Source: a virus
DNA: 27,563 nucleotides
Direction: 5' to 3' (one strand)
IMG/VR virus record: IMGVR_UViG_3300028571_002513
Coordinates: 1 to 27,563 of that record
Below are positions 2,270 through 13,638 of this stretch, one piece after another. The translations under genes and the position numbers were made by a program. Every line of letters begins with the position of its first letter. The first letter of the stretch is position 1. The notes below the pieces were generated by a model, which was given only the letters and a program-made list of their open reading frames with translations, searched no databases and was not told the DNA's origin.

Positions 2270-2358
2270 TTAAATATCCTCCAGAGTATAAAAGTCAGCG
2301 TTGGCAACGCAATCCAGGCTACGCATTGTGAAATATAATACATCGCCTCAGCACTCAT
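2266..2358 (-). CDS. 30-residue membrane peptide nested between two genes
   Basis: A very short frame, MSAEAMYYISQCVAWIALPT continuing LTFILWRIFK, that reads as one membrane helix with a basic end. The evidence that it is real is the setting. Its ATG overlaps the upstream stop as ATGA (2355-2358), its TGA overlaps the next ATG the same way (2266-2269), and GGAGAG lies just upstream of its start. It fills the only gap between the two neighbouring genes exactly. No function is known; the membrane character matches the surrounding membrane and lysis genes. Translation is likely coupled on both sides. Confidence 0.55.
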   Translation of the reverse strand: MSAEAMYYISQCVAWIALPTLTFILWRIFK

Positions 2359-2945
2359 TTAACTCTCCAGAACATATAGACGACGATTGCAAACGAAAAG
2401 ACCAGCAACAAAATCGATAGTTGCCGCGTATCTGCAAATATCTCTGTTTCCCGCTCTTTTGAGAGAGCCAACAGCGTGTCCACCCGCTGGACATATCGAT
2501 CCATCAGAGTCTGATAGTAGTGCAGAGCAGACCACGCTTCAGGCTTTTGCTGTTTCTTGATAAAGTCCACTACTTTCAGTTGAGCTTCCCGGTATTCTGG
2601 TCGCTCTTTTTTCATTTCGTTGACAAGCGTTCGCTCGCGATGGGACAATTTAGCGGCTGTAAGAAAATCAAGAACCTGGTTAGCGGAAGATCGTGTCACA
2701 AGCATTTTGTCCAGTTCTTTGCTTGCGTCATAGGCAGTCACTGCTATGCCTGCATTACGGAGCGCGATGTTGGCATTGAGGATATCGGATTTGAGTTGAT
2801 ACAGGTTTGCTCGTATTTCCTGTCTGTCTCTGATCCCTGACATCCCTATTTTTGTTGTAAGGCTCGAAATAGCCAGCAGCATCAAGATTATCAGCGGCGT
2901 ATACCGTATGGGGTTCAGAATGCTTTTTAATTTTGTCAAGTCCAC
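2355..2945 (-). CDS. Membrane-anchored four-helix-bundle sensor-like domain (chemoreceptor-like, no signalling domain)
   Basis: 196 residues with two membrane helices, about 13-35 (IRYTPLIILMLLAISS) and 174-194 (QLSILLLVFSFAIVVYMFW). About 140 helical residues lie between them and would sit in the periplasm. This is the topology and sequence style of the 4HB_MCP ligand-binding domain of methyl-accepting chemotaxis proteins. The HAMP and cytoplasmic signalling regions are missing; the protein ends right after the second helix. I start at a GTG (2945) with AAGGAGAC close upstream. It lies downstream of a receiver-domain gene and a coiled-coil membrane protein on the same strand. Function is unknown. 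It might interfere with or feed into host signalling, or be a lysis-associated membrane protein that merely looks similar. Confidence 0.55.
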   Translation of the reverse strand: MDLTKLKSILNPIRYTPLIILMLLAISSLTTKIGMSGIRDRQEIRANLYQLKSDILNANIALRNAGIAVTAYDASKELDKMLVTRSSANQVLDFLTAAKLSHRERTLVNEMKKERPEYREAQLKVVDFIKKQQKPEAWSALHYYQTLMDRYVQRVDTLLALSKERETEIFADTRQLSILLLVFSFAIVVYMFWRVK

Positions 2946-2965: not shown

Positions 2966-3523
2966 TTACTTTATAATCCTCAGCACCCATTCGACATGGT
3001 TCGCGACATCAAAGGCAAAGCCCACCAAAACCATTGCTACCAATACCAGCCAGACCGGAAACTCTTTTATTTTGTAGGAAAAGACAGCAAGGCTTTTGCA
3101 GAGTTCGTCAAGAGTAGTTTTCATTGCTTTCACTTGATCGGCGAGGTCTTTATAGCTCGTAGCAGGGCAGTTTTTGCAGGTATCGCTCAGGCTATCTATG
3201 CGCTTGTGCAGGACGGCGTGCTTATCGTTATTTTCAGTAGCCGCCTTGGATAGGCTCCTGCAAGGACTATGGTCTTTGATTAACCCGTCCAGTCGGTCGC
3301 TATCGTTGTCAATGCGCCTGTAGATTGCGGTGTGCTCTTCGTCGTTGTGATGTAACACCACCTCGATTGCTGCCAGCTTTTTCAGGATTTCAGTGATACA
3401 GTGCATAATCTCTTTGTGGTCATCCCGCATATTTGTAACTGCGAGCCCAAGAGATTCCAGCTTTATACCTGTTTCAGCGTGAGACTTAATTGACTGTATT
3501 GTCAGTTCTTGTAGGGTATCCAT
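2966..3523 (-). CDS. Coiled-coil protein with C-terminal membrane helix
   Basis: 185 residues. The first 145 are heptad-rich and charged, with repeated patterns HNDEEHTAIYRRIDND and NNDKHAVLHKRIDSLSD about 45 residues apart, which suggests an internal duplication and a long coiled coil. Two cysteine sites (SPCRS and DTCKNCP) punctuate it. A C-terminal membrane helix follows (FPVWLVLVAMVLVGFAFDV). The shape recalls XhlA-like phage membrane proteins (helical cytoplasmic part plus C-terminal anchor), but I cannot assign the family. Its start overlaps the end of the receiver gene by 38 bases. The Shine-Dalgarno site is weak (GGAG about 14 bases upstream), so translation may depend on coupling to the upstream gene. 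Confidence 0.55.
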   Translation of the reverse strand: MDTLQELTIQSIKSHAETGIKLESLGLAVTNMRDDHKEIMHCITEILKKLAAIEVVLHHNDEEHTAIYRRIDNDSDRLDGLIKDHSPCRSLSKAATENNDKHAVLHKRIDSLSDTCKNCPATSYKDLADQVKAMKTTLDELCKSLAVFSYKIKEFPVWLVLVAMVLVGFAFDVANHVEWVLRIIK

Positions 3524-3845
3524 ATTTATTCACGAGCTCCTTGAGTTGACCATATTCACATTTTGACCAGAATTCACACTGTCTAAACTGAGCCAGTGCT
3601 TTTTGTTCATCACCTGTGCTTGCCGTGGCTATGATGATCGGCAAATCCGGGTACAGCGCCTGTACGGCATAGACGACTGTCCAGCCATCACATTCCGGCA
3701 TCACTAAATCGCATATAAACAAATCTGGACGTTGATCTCTCATGCGATCCATCAATTGTTTATAGTCAGTAAATATCTGGGCTCCGTAGAGCTCTTGATA
3801 AACTTTAAGCTGTATTTTATTGTCATCTAGCGCGTAAATAAGCAT
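3486..3845 (-). CDS. Stand-alone response-regulator receiver (CheY-like) domain
   Basis: 119 residues, the size of a single receiver domain with no output domain. All phosphorylation-site landmarks are present: acidic pair D7-D8 (YALDDNK), phospho-acceptor D46 in FICDLVMPECDGW, T74 in PIIIATAST and K95 in FWSKCEY. Spacings are close to those of CheY. It should accept phosphate from a histidine kinase and signal by protein contact. No kinase is encoded in the window, so any partner is a host protein. The ATG at 3845 has AAGGAAG upstream and lies 48 bases after the reverse transcriptase stop, so it may share the DGR transcript. A receiver domain in a phage late region is unusual. Confidence 0.8.
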   Translation of the reverse strand: MLIYALDDNKIQLKVYQELYGAQIFTDYKQLMDRMRDQRPDLFICDLVMPECDGWTVVYAVQALYPDLPIIIATASTGDEQKALAQFRQCEFWSKCEYGQLKELVNKYGYPTRTDNTVN

Positions 3846-3893: not shown

Positions 3894-4919
3894 TTATACA
3901 GTACATCTCCAAGCTGGCTGCCATTTCTGCATTAACGCTGCTGGGTTCTTTTCGGATGCAATAGGCCAGTTTTGTTCTAAGAAGGTTATCATCCCTCGCA
4001 GCGAGTTAGTGGTTTTGGCATGACCAAGCAAAGAAATTACGCTTTGACTTTTGCCTCTATGCACTGCTCTGCGAAATTTATGCAGGCTATACTTCCTGAT
4101 AAATCTGGCCGTTCTCCATGTTCGATAGCCCACAAAGTTGACGCCGTTTTTTGTTTTCTGAATCGTCCACTTCGACAACTCCAAATTAAGGTTTGCCTTT
4201 AGATAGGCAATGGTCATATCTCGGTACCGCACGCATTCTTCTCTGGTTAGATCGAACAATATGAAATCATCGACATAACGGCAGTATTTGCGAATTTTGA
4301 GAGTTCTTTTTATAAAGTGATCCATTGAATTCAGATAAATAAGCGCATATGTCTGGGACAGTAGGTTGCCAATCGGTATTCCTATTAGGTTCTGGCGGTC
4401 GTCTGCAAACATCATCATAATGTTCACCAGCCTCTTGTCCTTGATTTTTCTTTCCACCATTTGGCGCAAAATGTCTCGATCAATGCGATAGAAGAATTTG
4501 CGAATGTCCATTTTCAGCGTGTACTTTTCTGGATCGCTTGATTGCAAAGCCTTCTGCGTATAGTCGCTAGCCTTATGTGTGCCTTTTCCGGAGCGGCAGG
4601 CGAAAGACGTTGCGATATAGCATTTTTCAAAAATAGGCTTCACTATCCTGTAAATCGCATGCTGCACTACGATATCTCCAAACCAAGGCGCACTAATTTC
4701 TCTCTTTTTGGGTTCATGGACGAAAAAGTGATGATATCGTCTGACCTTATATGTTCCGGAATGAATTCTATCGTGCAAGTCAGTGAGAAATGCTCCTGCT
4801 GCTATATCGAATTCATGGCAGGCATTTTTCATTCGCTTGCCTTTCCGTGCGTCCAAATATGCCTGGTACATATTTTCTGGACTGAAAACTTCATCAAAAA
4901 GATTTCCGGTTCTCTTCAA
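3894..4919 (-). CDS. DGR-type reverse transcriptase
   Basis: 341 residues, the normal length for DGR reverse transcriptases. Motifs run in order: RSGKGTHKA (about 109-117), KMDIRKFFYRID with catalytic D138, GIPIGNLLSQ (180-189; this -SQ form is a DGR hallmark), CRYVDDF with D217 and D218, and NFVGYRT (261-267). There is no maturase or endonuclease domain, unlike group II intron enzymes. It should copy the TR transcript at 5044-5161 into cDNA with errors at adenines, which then replaces the VR. The start is a TTG at 4919 with GAGG about 6 bases upstream; no better ATG is near. The TR lies 125 bases upstream, giving the classic order variable protein, avd, TR, RT. Confidence 0.95.
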   Translation of the reverse strand: MKRTGNLFDEVFSPENMYQAYLDARKGKRMKNACHEFDIAAGAFLTDLHDRIHSGTYKVRRYHHFFVHEPKKREISAPWFGDIVVQHAIYRIVKPIFEKCYIATSFACRSGKGTHKASDYTQKALQSSDPEKYTLKMDIRKFFYRIDRDILRQMVERKIKDKRLVNIMMMFADDRQNLIGIPIGNLLSQTYALIYLNSMDHFIKRTLKIRKYCRYVDDFILFDLTREECVRYRDMTIAYLKANLNLELSKWTIQKTKNGVNFVGYRTWRTARFIRKYSLHKFRRAVHRGKSQSVISLLGHAKTTNSLRGMITFLEQNWPIASEKNPAALMQKWQPAWRCTV

Positions 4920-5043
4920 TTAAAACCTCGTTGCTGGTCTTCGGTTTCCCTACCAAAAAGCAATGATTAAAACCAGTTCGCCATCAGGCAGGATAGTCTA
5001 TCCCTATGATTCCACTATACTCATACGAGCTTTGAGGGGGAAT

Positions 5044-5161
5044 CGTAGTCGGGCCGAGAGCCGATATTGTTGTTCACATTAGAACGCGGATTGTTGAGAT
5101 TGAGCTCAAACACGCCAGCATCACTGGCATTATTCCAGTTGCCACTCACGATAGGCACACG
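5044..5161 (-). repeat. DGR template repeat (TR)
   Basis: A non-coding 118-bp copy of the variable repeat at 5667-5784, lying between avd and the reverse transcriptase. Aligned at a constant offset of 623 bases, the two differ at 16 positions. Every one is a T on the plus strand of the TR, meaning A on the coding strand. Of 28 such adenines 16 are changed; the other 90 bases are identical. Beyond 5161 identity stops at once. At 5043 there is one more A-type difference, then unrelated sequence. In the VR frame the TR encodes mostly AAY asparagine codons at the variable sites, the usual design for wide substitution without stop codons. Confidence 0.95.
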
Positions 5162-5190
5162 TATTGACATATAAATCGCATATATGTAGG

Positions 5191-5601
5191 CTACCCTTTT
5201 TGTTTAAAGTTTTTGTCGGCCTCATTTCTTATCCAGCCGCCAATTAATTTTCCTAATTCGTCTACCAGCCTACTGATTGCTACCCATCGGGTTTTTTCTA
5301 TCGCTTCGCCGTCCACACCCTCGACAAATTTGCCGTCTTTAAAATGGAAGTAGCCCAGCTCCTGCGCTAAATATAGCTGCATTCGCAACTGCTCGTGGGC
5401 TATGTCCAATGACGTGAGTGTTGTTTTCTTGATGTATCTTTTTTGCCCTTCCACGATCAAATCGTACACTTCATACGCGGTATTGCGTATTCTGTTCGCC
5501 AGCGCAAATTTCTCGTGCTTCGGGAAGTGGTTCAGATAAACGTTCAGCAACTTCATCATTTCATGAAATTTCCTATACATAATTACGTCGCTGTTTTTCA
5601 T
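5191..5601 (-). CDS. avd: DGR accessory variability determinant (Avd-like four-helix protein)
   Basis: 136 residues, nearly all predicted helix and basic overall, with the pattern of Avd/S23-like four-helix bundles (for example NRIRNTAYEVYDLIVEGQKR and LDIAHEQLRMQLYLAQELGY). Avd proteins form a pentameric barrel that binds the reverse transcriptase and TR RNA and is needed for mutagenic retrohoming. The gene lies exactly where avd is found in the Bordetella phage DGR, between the variable gene and the TR. The ATG at 5601 has GGGAG about 9 bases upstream. The stop at 5191 is 30 bases before the TR begins, so avd and TR RNA are probably on one transcript. Confidence 0.9.
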   Translation of the reverse strand: MKNSDVIMYRKFHEMMKLLNVYLNHFPKHEKFALANRIRNTAYEVYDLIVEGQKRYIKKTTLTSLDIAHEQLRMQLYLAQELGYFHFKDGKFVEGVDGEAIEKTRWVAISRLVDELGKLIGGWIRNEADKNFKQKG

Positions 5602-5633
5602 CTGAACCGCTCCCTCAAAACAAAGTCAAAGGC

Positions 5634-5654
5634 ATGACGCGCTATCGCGGTCAT
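5634..5654 (-). other. Hairpin just downstream of the VR stop codon
   Basis: On the coding strand ATGAC-C-GCG, loop ATAG, then CGCGTCAT form an 8-bp stem with one bulged C and a 4-base loop. It starts 4 bases after the variable protein stop codon and 12 bases past the VR end. Short GC-containing hairpins or cruciforms at this place are known to aid target recognition in DGR retrohoming. A simple chance hairpin cannot be excluded. Confidence 0.6.
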
Positions 5655-5658
5655 TAAA

Positions 5659-6714
5659 TCATAGTACGTAGGCGGGCCGAGAGCCGAAATCGTAGTGCAC
5701 ATTAGAACGCGGATTGGCGAGATAGAGCCCAAACACGCCAGCACCACTGGCAACAGCCCAGTGGCCACCCACGATAGGCACACGCTCGCCGGTTATATCC
5801 AGCCAGAAACCGTCGCCGCCTAAACCAGTGCCTGCAACTGGGTACAGTCCCAGAGATTTGCAGAGTGCCAGTGCAGTTGCGCCAACCGGTGTACTTCCTG
5901 GATTAGTCATGCCCTCAAAAGAAGAGCCAGAAGCACGAACGAGCGTATAGTTGGCTGTGCCGCTTGCTGCATATTTCACGGTATTTGCTGAACCTGGTGT
6001 GACCAGGTTGCCGTTGCTGCCGTCGATCGCCTTCCATTGTGCTGATCCGGCTGAAACGTCTTTGGTATTATCCGCAGCGTTGTTGGATGCGAGTACTTGA
6101 ATTTCGCCTTCGTTGATACGCAATCCTGTATTCCACTCCCAGATATTGCCGTTAAGGTCGGCGATGCCGAATGGTGTCCCGTCATGCCGCCATGAGGCAG
6201 GGCCCGAACCTGTCAGGGTAACTCCGTCTCCTGCTGCTACGCCCGGTGCGTTTCCATCTGTTCGGCGTCCGGTTTCCCATGTGTTTGCGTCGTTGCGGCC
6301 CCAGTTGGTATTACCGCGTGGCTGAGTGCCGTTTTTCCAGCACCAGAGTGCTATTGCAGCACGCTCTGCGTTTGTCATCAGATGCCAGCCTGCTCCGTTG
6401 GCTGCTGCTTGCGCCAGAAAAGTATCAAAGTTCTGGCTTACGGTGGGATGTACGTTTGGCAATGAAAGCAGATTACCGTCTTTCACTATGCCCTGGTAAG
6501 TCCCTATGAAAATTTCTGATTTGTTCACTCCGTTAACCGTGAATGCAGGGTGCAGTCCGGTTCCGAGGCCAGCGTCGATGTCTTCTTTGTTGAACGCAGG
6601 GATAATGTTCATTACGCTGGGGTGTCCGGCTGCTGTGTACAAAACGGTCTGTTTGCCACCGGATGCGGCTTCCACTGATGCACGAAAATCGTCTTTTACA
6701 AATATAGTTGGCAT
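5659..6714 (-). CDS. DGR variable protein, C-type lectin/FGE-like fold, probable receptor-binding tip
   Basis: 351 residues. The C-terminal two thirds carry marks of the formylglycine-generating-enzyme-like C-type lectin fold used by DGR targets: WHLMTNAERAAIALWCW (110-126), NWGRND, GIADLNGNIWEW (183-194) and the end FGSRPAYVL. The VR covers residues 311-349 of 351, on the ligand-binding face in known structures. About the first 100 residues are unlike the lectin part and may join the protein to the tail fibre. The gene follows a tail-fibre gene and a DUF4376-like gene, so it most likely sits at the fibre tip and binds the host surface. The start at 6714 has AAAGGAGAG upstream. Confidence 0.9.
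   Translation of the reverse strand: MPTIFVKDDFRASVEAASGGKQTVLYTAAGHPSVMNIIPAFNKEDIDAGLGTGLHPAFTVNGVNKSEIFIGTYQGIVKDGNLLSLPNVHPTVSQNFDTFLAQAAANGAGWHLMTNAERAAIALWCWKNGTQPRGNTNWGRNDANTWETGRRTDGNAPGVAAGDGVTLTGSGPASWRHDGTPFGIADLNGNIWEWNTGLRINEGEIQVLASNNAADNTKDVSAGSAQWKAIDGSNGNLVTPGSANTVKYAASGTANYTLVRASGSSFEGMTNPGSTPVGATALALCKSLGLYPVAGTGLGGDGFWLDITGERVPIVGGHWAVASGAGVFGLYLANPRSNVHYDFGSRPAYVL
5667..5784 (-). repeat. DGR variable repeat (VR)
   Basis: The diversified copy of the TR inside the last 40 codons of the variable protein. Thirteen codons differ from the TR, all non-synonymous. From N to C terminus they read TR to VR: S to G, N to H, N to A, N to V, D to G, E to G, N to Y, N to A, N to H, N to Y, N to D, I to F, D to A. 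No base other than coding-strand adenine has changed. Two Asn codons remain as in the TR. The GC-rich end beside the stop codon is where an initiation-of-mutagenic-homing site would be expected. Confidence 0.95.
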
Positions 6715-6745: not shown

Positions 6746-7135
6746 TTACCAGTTGATGGTGTTGACCGCGTCAACGGTCTCTGCTGCCTCTATTGCCTGT
6801 TCCAGTTGCCATTTTTTAGCGTACAGCCCCAGGCCAAAATCGATCAACTCCCCGATGATCTCAGTTAATTCCGCCACCGTCACATTATGGAACTGGTTTG
6901 ATTTATCGCGGATAGTGGCTACAGTTGATGTTGATCCGGTCTCAAGCAGCCTGTCTCTGAGTCGGCTCAGGTTATCGATATCCTCACGCGCTGAGTCCAT
7001 CATGTAACCTGCTGACACCTCAAAGCCGTATTCAGGGGCACGCTCAAATGCGTGCTTGATCCGTCCCTTTTGGATTGTTTTTGCTGTTACCAGCGGGTCA
7101 GGTGCTGGCATTGTGCTGTTGATTTGTTCATCCAT
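6746..7135 (-). CDS. DUF4376-like tail fibre-associated protein
   Basis: 129 residues. The C-terminal half has the pattern of the DUF4376 domain: IRDKSNQFHNVTVAELTEII, then a helix ending LYAKKWQLEQAIEAAETVD. This domain is common in small phage proteins or tail-fibre assembly proteins encoded beside fibres. Here it lies between the fibre (7151-8047) and the DGR variable protein (5659-6714), which fits a fibre chaperone or linker. The start at 7135 has AGAGGAG upstream; the preceding gene stops at 7151. The biochemical role of the domain is not known. Confidence 0.65.
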   Translation of the reverse strand: MDEQINSTMPAPDPLVTAKTIQKGRIKHAFERAPEYGFEVSAGYMMDSAREDIDNLSRLRDRLLETGSTSTVATIRDKSNQFHNVTVAELTEIIGELIDFGLGLYAKKWQLEQAIEAAETVDAVNTINW

Positions 7136-7150
7136 TTTTTGACTCCTCTC

Positions 7151-8047
7151 TTAAAGATTAAGTTTTCTGGCAGTCCAGTTTACGATTACGCTGTCTGCGC
7201 TGCCGTTAAACTGTATGTCGAATCCTGTAGTGGTTTTATTTACCGCTTTCACGCTACCGCACTGCGTTTCTGCTCCGGTATACCCGGTAACTTCAAGAGC
7301 GACATGATAGTCGGCTGTATCCATATTGTAGGGGAATACTACCGATGCTGTAGGGAGTGCAGAGACAAACTGCGGGAATCCGCTTTGCAAATTTGCTACT
7401 TTGGTCAGCGTACATCCGCTCAGGTTTTCTGCTGTGTTGCCTGCCGGAACGGTCACTCGGTACAACAGCATTGTTCCAGCCGGATATGTTTCATTCAGGT
7501 TTGTGGCCTTCAGGTCTCCAGTGCTATCGATGTAAAGGTCAACATGCCCAGCACTGCCACCTGTATTCTGTGCGATACTGGCTGTGCTGGTTTGCCCTTC
7601 TACGCCATTAAAAACACCATTCAGGAAGACAACTCCTGCCGAGATATTCACCAGCCGCCCTGTCCCGCCTGCTGTTACATCGCAACCACTGATAACTCCA
7701 GTATTGCGGATAGTAACTGTGCCCTGCTGAAACCGCTGTTTCAGGGTTTTGGTGATCTCGCGATTCGCAAGCCCTGCCTGTGCCAGCGCCTCCATAGTGG
7801 CTGCGGTAAGCGCGTTGATGGCGTCGGGATTTGTATCGGCGACATCGGTTTCGATCTGGTCAAGTCTTTCGTCCAGTGAGGCGTGACCTGTGCGAGCGGC
7901 TGCAAGTTCGTTTTCACTTGCGGCAACCCGCCCTTCGTGGTTGCTGAAATTGTCATCAATTTCAGAATAGCGGGTGTTCCAGAGCGCGGGTACGGCATCC
8001 GGCTCGTTGTTCGGGATCTGCGTAATGTTTACATGTGGTAAAGCCAT
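7151..8047 (-). CDS. Tail fibre protein
   Basis: 298 residues in three parts. The N-terminal end (about 1-35) is a likely attachment segment (WNTRYSEIDDNFSNHE). A heptad-rich coiled coil follows (about 35-75, ENELAAARTGHASLDERLDQ), and then Gly/Thr/Ser-rich beta sequence. The last 70 residues look like a compact C-terminal fibre domain (FVSALPTASVVFPYN onward, ending NWTARKLNL). Such trimeric fibres carry host-binding tips. It is encoded directly upstream of the DUF4376-like gene and the DGR target, so it is probably the shaft that displays the variable protein. The start at 8047 has AAAGGAGAG upstream. No specific family name can be given from sequence alone. Confidence 0.65.
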   Translation of the reverse strand: MALPHVNITQIPNNEPDAVPALWNTRYSEIDDNFSNHEGRVAASENELAAARTGHASLDERLDQIETDVADTNPDAINALTAATMEALAQAGLANREITKTLKQRFQQGTVTIRNTGVISGCDVTAGGTGRLVNISAGVVFLNGVFNGVEGQTSTASIAQNTGGSAGHVDLYIDSTGDLKATNLNETYPAGTMLLYRVTVPAGNTAENLSGCTLTKVANLQSGFPQFVSALPTASVVFPYNMDTADYHVALEVTGYTGAETQCGSVKAVNKTTTGFDIQFNGSADSVIVNWTARKLNL

Positions 8048-10839: not shown

Positions 10840-10899
10840 GAGGATATTAGGTGGAGGCTTTGTGATATAAGAGGGAAGTGTTGCTAAATGGAGGGTGGG

Positions 10900-13638
10900 A
10901 TGATGGAGCAGAAAAAACCGAAATGTATTGTCCGAGACTGGAAAGACATTGAAGAGCAAGCGCGCAAGTTGGTCTTTACATTCGGTAAGCATTCACGCGA
11001 ACAGGCGGTTAGCAAGCTATTTGTTGATAAGTTTTTGGCGATGTTTGGATTTAGCGCAATCGAGATCGGAAGCTTTGAGCACCAGGTCGCGAAACTTGGT
11101 AACAAATCAGGGTTTATTGATTGTTTCATTCCGGGCAAGCTCCTGATTGAATTCAAGTCACGCGGCAAAGACCTTGATAAAGCACTGTTGCAGGGGCTTG
11201 ATTATTTGAGCGGCCTTGCCAAAGAAGAAATGCCGCGTTACCTCCTTATCTGTGACTTTGGTCGTTTCCGACTGCATGATCTTCTGGATAGGACAAAGGA
11301 TGTAGACTTCACCCTTGAAGAGCTGCCAAAACAGGTCAAGCTGTTCAAGTTTTTACTTGGTGAGGAATCAGAACAAACGGCACATGAACTGAGTATTGAT
11401 GTAAAAGCCTCAAATCTCATGGGTAAGCTGCATGATAGCATCAGGAAAGATGGTTACGAAGGGAAAGAGTTGGAGGTGTTACTTGTCCGTCTGTTGTTTT
11501 GCCTGTTTGCCGATGATACCGGAATCTTTGAACACAATTCGTTTAAGAAGCTGATTGAACAACGCACCGGTGATGACCCTTCATCAATGTTTTCGCTCTT
11601 TGCACGGCTGTTTGCGATACTTAACACCAAAGAAGAAAAACGCGGCAATAACACCGCTGAATATCTTGCCAACTTCCCCTACATAAACGGTAGGCTCTTT
11701 GAAGAGCAGTTTCCGTTGCCGGACAGCACAAGAGAAATGCGTGACGCTCTTCTGGAGTGTTGCGAAATGGACTGGAGCGAGATTTCACCGGCTATTTTCG
11801 GTTCCATGTTTCAGACGATCATGGAAGAAGGCGAAGGTAACAGACGGCGTGAGCAAGGGGCGCATTATACCTCTGAAACCAATATACTGAAATTGATACG
11901 TCCGCTGTTTCTTGATGATCTGGAAAAAGAGTTCGCCGCTTGTGGAAAGAACAAGGCTAAGCTCGAAACATTCCACGACAAGCTGTCAACACTCAAATTC
12001 CTTGACCCGGCTTGCGGTTGTGGCAATTTTCTTGTCGTGGCGTATCGGGAAATCAGGCGGCTTGAATTGAAAGTTCTTGACCTGCTACATCCTCCGGTAA
12101 ACAAGCTGGGATTCCGGCAAATGGGGCTTGGTCTTGCCGAGATTGTAAGGGTGAACGTAGACCAGTTTTACGGCATTGAGGTTGAAGAGTTCCCCGCGCA
12201 GATCGCCCAGGTTGCCTTATGGCTTGTTGATCATCAGGTAAACATGGAAGTAAGCAAGCTGTTTTGCCAGACGTTCAAGCGGATACCGCTCAACAAGTCA
12301 CCTTCAATAACCTGCGGGAACGCTCTTAAAGCACCGTGGCCTGCCGCTGATTACATCATGGGGAATCCGCCTTTTATCGGGCATCAATGGCGGGATGTTC
12401 ATCAAATGGATGACATGGAAAGGATATGGGGCAAAGACGGCAAATTCGGGAGGCTCGATTATGTGACCTGCTGGCACAGGAAAGCTACTGATTACATGGT
12501 ATTGAATCCAAAGACCAAAACAGCCTTTGTCTCCACCAATAGTATTTGTCAGGGTGAGCAGGTCGGCACACTTTGGGAATGGATGCTGGCGCAAGGGATA
12601 AAGATTCATTTTGCACACCGGACTTTCCAATGGCACAACGAGGCAAGGGGCAAGGCTGCGGTGCATTGCATCATTGTTGGTTTTGGTTTGGGGGATGTGA
12701 AAGATAAGATCATTTTTGAGTATGACAGCATCAAGGGTGAACCACGGGCGGTAAAATCCAACAACATCAATCCTTATCTGGTTGACGCGCCAAGTGTGAT
12801 ATTGCCGTCAAGAACGAAAACACCGGAAGGGTTGCCACAGCTTATCAAGGGGAGTCAGCCTACAGACGGCGGTCACCTGATAATGACCGATGAGCAAAAA
12901 GCGGCACTGTTGGCAAAAGAGCCGAATGCCAAAAAGTGGATCAAGAAATATATCGGCGGCGAAGAGCTGATAAATGGCGGTCAGCGGTGGTGTTTGTGGT
13001 TGAAAGGCATTGAACCGGATGAGCTGAAGAAGCTGCCGGAGGTTATGAAGCGGGTGGCGTTGGTAGCAGAGAACAGAAAGAAAAGTCCAACTTTGAGTGT
13101 ACGGGAATTTGCCGCTTATCCGACGTTGTTTACACAAGACCGGCAACCGGGTAGCAATTATCTGGCGATACCGGAAGTTTCTTCCGAAAGCCGTAAATTT
13201 ATACCAATCGGGTTTTTAACTACATCAACCATTGCCAGCAACAAATTACAAATTATTTCCGGTGCAACAGCCTACCACTTCGGCATTCTCTCCAGTTCCA
13301 TGCACAACGCCTGGATGCGTACCGTAGCCGGAAGATTAAAAAGTGATTATAGCTATTCACCATCTGTCTACAACAACTTCCCCTGGCCGCAATCTGCCAC
13401 AGAAAAACAGCACATGAGCGTGATGGAGAAGGCACAAAAGGTGCTTGATGCCCGTGCCGCTCATCCCAAAAGTACGCTTGCGGATATGTATGCCCCTACT
13501 TCAATGCCGAAGGATTTGATTGATGCGCACAAGGATTTGGACAAGGCCGTTGATGCAGCTTATGGCTATGCAGGCGGCAAGGATGACGCAGCGCGGGTTG
13601 CCTATCTGTTCGGGCTGTATGGGGAGATGGTGAAGTAA
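10900..13638 (+). CDS. MmeI-family single-chain restriction-modification enzyme (type IIG/IIL)
   Basis: 912 residues from ATG 10900 (ATGs at 10888 and 10903 are alternatives; GGAGG at 10890-10894 favours 10900 or 10903). Counting from 10888, D78-x9-E88-x-K90 (FIDCFIPGKLLIEFKS) is the nuclease site, with the exact spacing reported for MmeI. A helical spacer follows, then methyltransferase motif I DPACGCGNF (373-381) and motif IV NPPF (493-496) for N6-adenine methylation. A target-recognition region and C-terminal helices (DKAVDAAYGYAGG) close the protein. One protein would therefore methylate one strand of its site and cut at a distance. It is the only clear plus-strand gene, placed between two structural gene blocks, which suggests acquired cargo for excluding other phages. 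The recognition sequence is unknown. Confidence 0.9.
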   Translation: MMEQKKPKCIVRDWKDIEEQARKLVFTFGKHSREQAVSKLFVDKFLAMFGFSAIEIGSFEHQVAKLGNKSGFIDCFIPGKLLIEFKSRGKDLDKALLQGLDYLSGLAKEEMPRYLLICDFGRFRLHDLLDRTKDVDFTLEELPKQVKLFKFLLGEESEQTAHELSIDVKASNLMGKLHDSIRKDGYEGKELEVLLVRLLFCLFADDTGIFEHNSFKKLIEQRTGDDPSSMFSLFARLFAILNTKEEKRGNNTAEYLANFPYINGRLFEEQFPLPDSTREMRDALLECCEMDWSEISPAIFGSMFQTIMEEGEGNRRREQGAHYTSETNILKLIRPLFLDDLEKEFAACGKNKAKLETFHDKLSTLKFLDPACGCGNFLVVAYREIRRLELKVLDLLHPPVNKLGFRQMGLGLAEIVRVNVDQFYGIEVEEFPAQIAQVALWLVDHQVNMEVSKLFCQTFKRIPLNKSPSITCGNALKAPWPAADYIMGNPPFIGHQWRDVHQMDDMERIWGKDGKFGRLDYVTCWHRKATDYMVLNPKTKTAFVSTNSICQGEQVGTLWEWMLAQGIKIHFAHRTFQWHNEARGKAAVHCIIVGFGLGDVKDKIIFEYDSIKGEPRAVKSNNINPYLVDAPSVILPSRTKTPEGLPQLIKGSQPTDGGHLIMTDEQKAALLAKEPNAKKWIKKYIGGEELINGGQRWCLWLKGIEPDELKKLPEVMKRVALVAENRKKSPTLSVREFAAYPTLFTQDRQPGSNYLAIPEVSSESRKFIPIGFLTTSTIASNKLQIISGATAYHFGILSSSMHNAWMRTVAGRLKSDYSYSPSVYNNFPWPQSATEKQHMSVMEKAQKVLDARAAHPKSTLADMYAPTSMPKDLIDAHKDLDKAVDAAYGYAGGKDDAARVAYLFGLYGEMVK

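Follow-up and report, generated by a model that had tools for sequence, protein, structure and literature searches.

Sequence evidence for a complete diversity-generating retroelement of the BPP-1 type among the tail genes of a contractile relative of phage P1

A contractile phage related to P1 almost certainly carries, within its cluster of tail genes, a full diversity-generating retroelement (DGR) resembling that of BPP-1. The whole stretch of DNA analysed, referred to here as the window, is a virus record of 27,563 bases with nearly all of its genes on the minus strand. A sequence-only reading had proposed the canonical order of a variable protein (VP) with its variable repeat (VR), Avd, template repeat (TR) and reverse transcriptase (RT), and all of these parts were recovered where it had placed them. 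The claim of completeness was likewise borne out by adenine-only differences between TR and VR, a DGR-type RT, an Avd, a VR within a coding target, and a probable IMH boundary followed by a hairpin. The elements of the cassette are as follows.

3894..4919, minus strand: DGR reverse transcriptase, 341 aa, TTG start, YVDD active site, IGNLLSQ motif.
4920..5043, minus strand: TR-RT spacer, conserved structured RNA with covariation in a 12-sequence alignment.
5044..5161, minus strand: TR, template repeat, the 118-bp repeat partner of VR.
5191..5601, minus strand: Avd, accessory variability determinant, 136 aa, four-helix-bundle family.
5634..5654, minus strand: DNA hairpin 3′ of VR, atgaccgcGATAgcgcgtcat, 8-bp stem, one bulge, GATA loop (GRNA consensus).
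5667..5784, minus strand: VR, variable repeat, the 118-bp copy of TR at the 3′ end of the target gene.
5672 (TR partner 5049), minus strand: probable fixed IMH/IMH* difference, C in VR and A in TR; GAC (Asp) in TR, GCC (Ala) in VR.
5659..6714, minus strand: variable protein, 351 aa, TaqVP-like FGE-type C-type-lectin fold, PHROG phrog_2889.

The repeat search returned a single direct repeat of 118 bp, pairing 5044-5161 with 5667-5784 at 86% identity. Base-by-base comparison placed all 16 differing sites at TR adenines of the minus (coding) strand, exactly as the sequence-only reading had it. The changes from TR to VR comprise seven A>G, five A>C and four A>T, while no non-adenine site differs. 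Because TR contains 28 adenines in 118 bases, the probability of 16/16 differences falling at adenines is 1.3e-12. VR forms the in-frame 3′ end of the 351-codon gene, and a recount of the altered codons gave the 13 claimed earlier, each of them non-synonymous (13/13). The TR codon is AAY at 8 of these 13, which agrees with the earlier description of mainly AAY codons, and no stop codon is reachable by adenine mutation from any adenine-containing codon of TR. A second VR was not found in the 27,563 bases of the record. The small ORF at 5598-5783, which overlaps VR in another frame, was without supporting evidence and was taken as a chance ORF.

The identity of the target protein was approached by profile and structure comparison. 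VP belongs to phrog_2889 (E 3e-131), and a profile built from 36 VP sequences matched PDB 5vf4 with E 8e-124. This entry is the structure of TaqVP, which is diversified by a DGR in a prophage of Thermus aquaticus (PMC6328139). The AlphaFold2 model of VP (pLDDT 92.4) matched 5vf4 with a Foldseek E of 5e-42 and a Z of 51.8 over 339 residues at 1.6 Å, with TvpA and Mtd as lower-ranked structure matches. Profile and predicted structure together place VP with TaqVP, having an FGE-type C-type-lectin fold with a C-terminal VR. The earlier proposition that the phage varies its host receptor binding stands as far as a tail-type target is concerned, on the grounds of homology to TaqVP and Mtd and of location among tail genes; receptor binding itself we infer, with VP predicted to lie at the tail tip and to bind host receptors.

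An active DGR whose target is some other surface or virion protein, and not a receptor-binding tail protein, is rather unlikely. It draws on the unknown function of the phrog_2889 family and on the occurrence of the FGE-type fold in enzymes as well. Against it stand the fold matches with Mtd and TaqVP and the location of the VP gene, which in several phage types lies between tail fibre and lysis genes or otherwise amid tail genes. Even in Klebsiella Yonseivirus phages, where VP is 46% identical and no RT is nearby, the gene adjoins tail genes. Loci L017, L060, L067 and L074, among which Yonseivirus phages are included, hold members of the VP family but no Avd, TR or RT was found in them, so that their target genes apparently have no DGR.

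Not all of the 16 differences should be read as variable sites. The last of them, between VR 5672 and TR 5049, most probably reflects a fixed boundary between IMH* and IMH rather than mutagenesis, because at the equivalent position C in VR faces A in TR for 13/13 VRs of the window's RT clade, while other TR adenines in the same clade end as C in 41/317 cases (13%). The probability of C throughout at this site across the 13 VRs is 2.8e-12. Two loci in Geobacter-binned contigs (L062 and L063), whose VRs differ at 16 TR-adenine sites, have the same base at the equivalent of 5672. The simplest reading is that the site lies beyond the point of cDNA replacement in VR, as an IMH*/IMH difference like those described for other DGRs. 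Alternatively, strong selection for Ala may keep the C constant. Under either a fixed boundary or selection for Ala, VR 5672 is not countable as random mutagenesis; the earlier count of 16 differences therefore holds in that all are at TR adenines, but the mutagenised ones come to 15 sites in 12 codons.

A hairpin follows 12 bases after the end of VR. Such a structure 3′ of VR is required for retrohoming in BPP-1 (PMC3240598), and related phage DGRs have stems of 7-10 bp with 4-nt GRNA loops, 4-34 bp past VR (PMC3240598). The DNA fold of the window hairpin has a z of −3.1; the one bulged base of its stem was weighed against the reading of a complete DGR. GRNA-type hairpins were found within 70 bases 3′ of VR in 33 of 43 distinct VRs, as compared with 2/43 TR 3′ ends and 0.3% of shuffles, and BPP-1, the positive control, gave gcggggccGAAAggccccgc with its GAAA loop. 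A probable IMH/IMH* boundary and the GRNA-loop hairpin after VR are both present as in phage DGRs. Where a hairpin was found in the window's RT lineage, its distance from VR is 12-19 bases; in the other lineage it is mostly about 28-42. Engine and target-site geometry seem, from these comparisons, to change together.

The RT matches RVT_1 (E 1e-15) and phrog_1423 (E 2e-96), and its best solved relative is the RT of 8ub7 (E 2e-48). It could be aligned along its length with BPP-1 bRT at 34% identity, including the IPIGxLxSQ and YxDD motifs; comparison with known RTs accordingly supports the assignment proposed from the sequence. The reading frames of RT, Avd and VP are uninterrupted, and the RT, for which disruption was specifically looked for, retains its active-site motifs. 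Avd was recognized by PF22296 bAvd above the cut-off (E 5e-15) and by phrog_3206 Avd (E 5e-21), while comparison with PDB gave no convincing match. Two further points were weighed against a complete DGR, namely the TTG start of RT and the score of Avd with NF033474 (E 1e-19), whose 70.5 bits are below the NCBIfam curated cut-off of 80.

The spacer between TR and RT, 106-164 nt long, is conserved across the window's RT clade. In an alignment of 12 sequences, with 4917-5043 as the window segment, RNAalifold gave 15 pairs with 99.4% of cells paired. Changes on both sides were observed at 6 pairs, in 34 cells, and helix 2 showed covariation at 4/4 pairs. The covariation score was 0.52, compared with 0.16 for shuffled and at most 0.07 for slid alignments, a result biased in favour of the structure as it was derived from the same alignment used to score it. 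The Rfam scan of the DGR region gave one chance match only, below threshold.

Taken as a BPP-1-type system, the cassette would act in the following way. An RNA of TR and the structured spacer would be copied by RT with Avd, and template adenines would be misread during copying. The mutated cDNA would then replace VR upstream of the IMH boundary and the GRNA-loop hairpin, which mark the target. The exposed C-terminal face of the lectin fold in the TaqVP-like tail protein would be altered in consequence, with TR remaining constant.

Evidence for activity comes from relatives. The two Geobacter-binned contigs are prophages with a VP 74% identical to that of the window. Around VR they are 99.8% identical (0.19% of sites differ), while within VR 14.4% differ, that is 17/118 sites, of which 16 are at TR adenines (P 2e-11); their TRs are identical. 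In three other pairs, every VR difference is at a TR adenine: 11/11 for L042/L043, 18/18 for L064/L066 (Burkholderia, Pseudothauera) and 18/18 for L051/L052. Pooling of 58 loci, some of them duplicates, gave VR differences at 836/1520 TR adenines versus 40 changes at all other bases. Between near-identical phages, VR differences are therefore concentrated at TR adenines and not evenly spread, which upholds the expectation of the sequence-only reading. Because of the replicate pairs and the 58-locus pattern, the DGR family is judged to be active. One more pair deserves mention: L010 and L011 are otherwise identical contigs with the same VR, in which the TRs (L010 3572-3688, L011 6538-6654) differ at 8 sites. 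At all 8 the L010 copy has an adenine and the L011 copy another base, which may stem either from VR-to-TR conversion or from TR and VR reads having been mixed during assembly.

For the window phage itself, TR and VR record at least one past round of adenine mutagenesis, and its present activity is presumed from that of its relatives. A decayed DGR, in which diversification of VR has ceased and left a frozen variant, is quite improbable. This possibility arises as only one VR sequence of the window phage is known: no near-identical second copy was found, nor any nucleotide relative among phage genomes by megablast. It is opposed by the intact genes and RT motifs, by the lack of non-adenine differences between TR and VR, and by diversification in almost every relative for which a pair was available. 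Lastly, an ordinary duplication next to a retron, DRT or group II intron RT is hardly credible and was rejected, for the weak matches of RT to these models are expected for the superfamily, the NCBIfam models stay far below their cut-offs with 8ub7 as best solved match, the adenine-only differences and the hairpin would be left unexplained, and the 58-locus adenine pattern refutes it.

Portal, tail sheath and a 554-aa capsid-type protein of the window have P1-group phages first among the matches listed; identities are 29-34% and the alignments span 78-96% of the respective proteins, as a P1-like assignment requires. PHROG matches in the window include PmgC- and PmgG-like proteins. By these comparisons, the window phage is a distant and contractile relative of P1. 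P1-type replication genes and the Cin tail-fibre inversion region lie outside the 27.6-kb fragment. Four P1-like contigs are nearer to the window (portal 58-73%), and RT and VP are absent from their known sequence; these contigs may be fragments. The genes around the cassette that enter the discussion are the following.

2355-2945, minus strand: weak 4HB_MCP sensor match, below the Pfam cut-off, with hydrophobic ends and without a signalling domain.
2966-3523, minus strand: coiled-coil-like protein with a hydrophobic C-terminus.
3486-3845, minus strand: receiver protein, a stand-alone response regulator (PF00072), directly after RT.
6746..7135, minus strand: DUF4376 protein (PF14301, E 5e-10), which travels with the DGR cassette.
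7151..8047, minus strand: probable tail fibre/tail-tip protein, which travels with the DGR cassette.
10888-13638, plus strand: Type IIG restriction-modification enzyme (PADLOC, 1111 bits).

A DUF4376 protein with 60% identity is encoded at the equivalent position of the Geobacter loci. The probable fibre protein is 60% identical over 265 aa in the Geobacter pair and 33% in Pseudomonas phage Bise, and its gene is upstream of the VP gene in both. The block of fibre, DUF4376, VP, Avd, TR and RT shares 60-74% identity with its counterpart in the Geobacter pair, whose tail genes (tape measure, gpJ/gpI-like) represent a different type as judged from their translations. The fibre-to-RT block therefore seems to have passed between types of phage.

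Exchange within the block is suggested by trees, in which the histories of VP and RT disagree. VP of locus L007 falls with the window clade (100/99) while its RT is in the other lineage (100/100), and in accord with this L007 is 67% identical to the window in VP and only 31% in RT. Conversely, L011, L042 and L044 pair the window's RT lineage with more distant VPs. We see an even chance that a P1-related branch acquired the whole tail-tip and DGR block from unrelated contractile phages and varies its tail tip by mutagenic retrohoming, with the engine (Avd and RT) and the target also exchanged independently within such blocks. Phage P1 itself switches tail fibres by DNA inversion.

Other neighbours were set apart from the cassette. 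In the receiver protein the DD, phospho-acceptor Asp, Thr/Ser and Lys are all apparently present. The genes at 2355-2945 and 2966-3523 lie between the DGR and the lysis genes, and their proteins have no match in the Geobacter relatives. The search made of viral contigs found no relatives of the receiver-domain and 4HB-sensor proteins, and these genes are therefore not counted in the cassette. The Type IIG gene is the sole large gene on the plus strand and adjoins the portal; a 45% relative of the enzyme is located at the equivalent position in L075.

The order target-Avd-TR-RT is common to the window and BPP-1 (mtd-avd-TR-brt), as are adenine-specific TR/VR differences and a GRNA-loop hairpin 3′ of VR. 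In contrast to BPP-1, the target sequence resembles TaqVP and not Mtd, the cassette sits in a contractile relative of P1, and a single A/C site is found in place of four non-A IMH*/IMH differences. TaqVP is a whole-length homologue of VP, 44-50% identical in structure alignments, with VR at the C-terminus in both and the same cassette order in Thermus (PMC6328139); nevertheless, it has 381 aa versus 351 aa, other variable residues and another host phage. Phage Bise and the Geobacter pair share the lineage of VP (60-74%), Avd (71-72%), TR and RT (63-69%), but by their head and tail genes they belong to other contractile types, whereas the window has a P1-like portal, sheath and capsid. The tail-type target, adenine bias and signs of activity are as in the phage-encoded DGR clades of Roux et al. 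2021 (PMC8144416), where more than 30,000 DGRs in six lineages were catalogued. DGRs with tail-type targets in phages are already well known, and the window is a textbook case in a mildly unusual phage.

No paper linking a DGR with a P1-like phage was found in the partial literature library that was searched. The window adds a clean and complete DGR to a phage group for which no description of one was found there, and it ties TaqVP, a target whose structure has been solved, to a lineage with natural replicate pairs. These pairs, from two Geobacter MAGs and a Burkholderia/Pigmentiphaga/Pseudothauera set, make mutagenic retrohoming measurable in nature without an isolate, and the probable fixed A/C site offers a mark for where cDNA replacement should stop. 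For the phage, the cassette probably provides a means to change what it sticks to.
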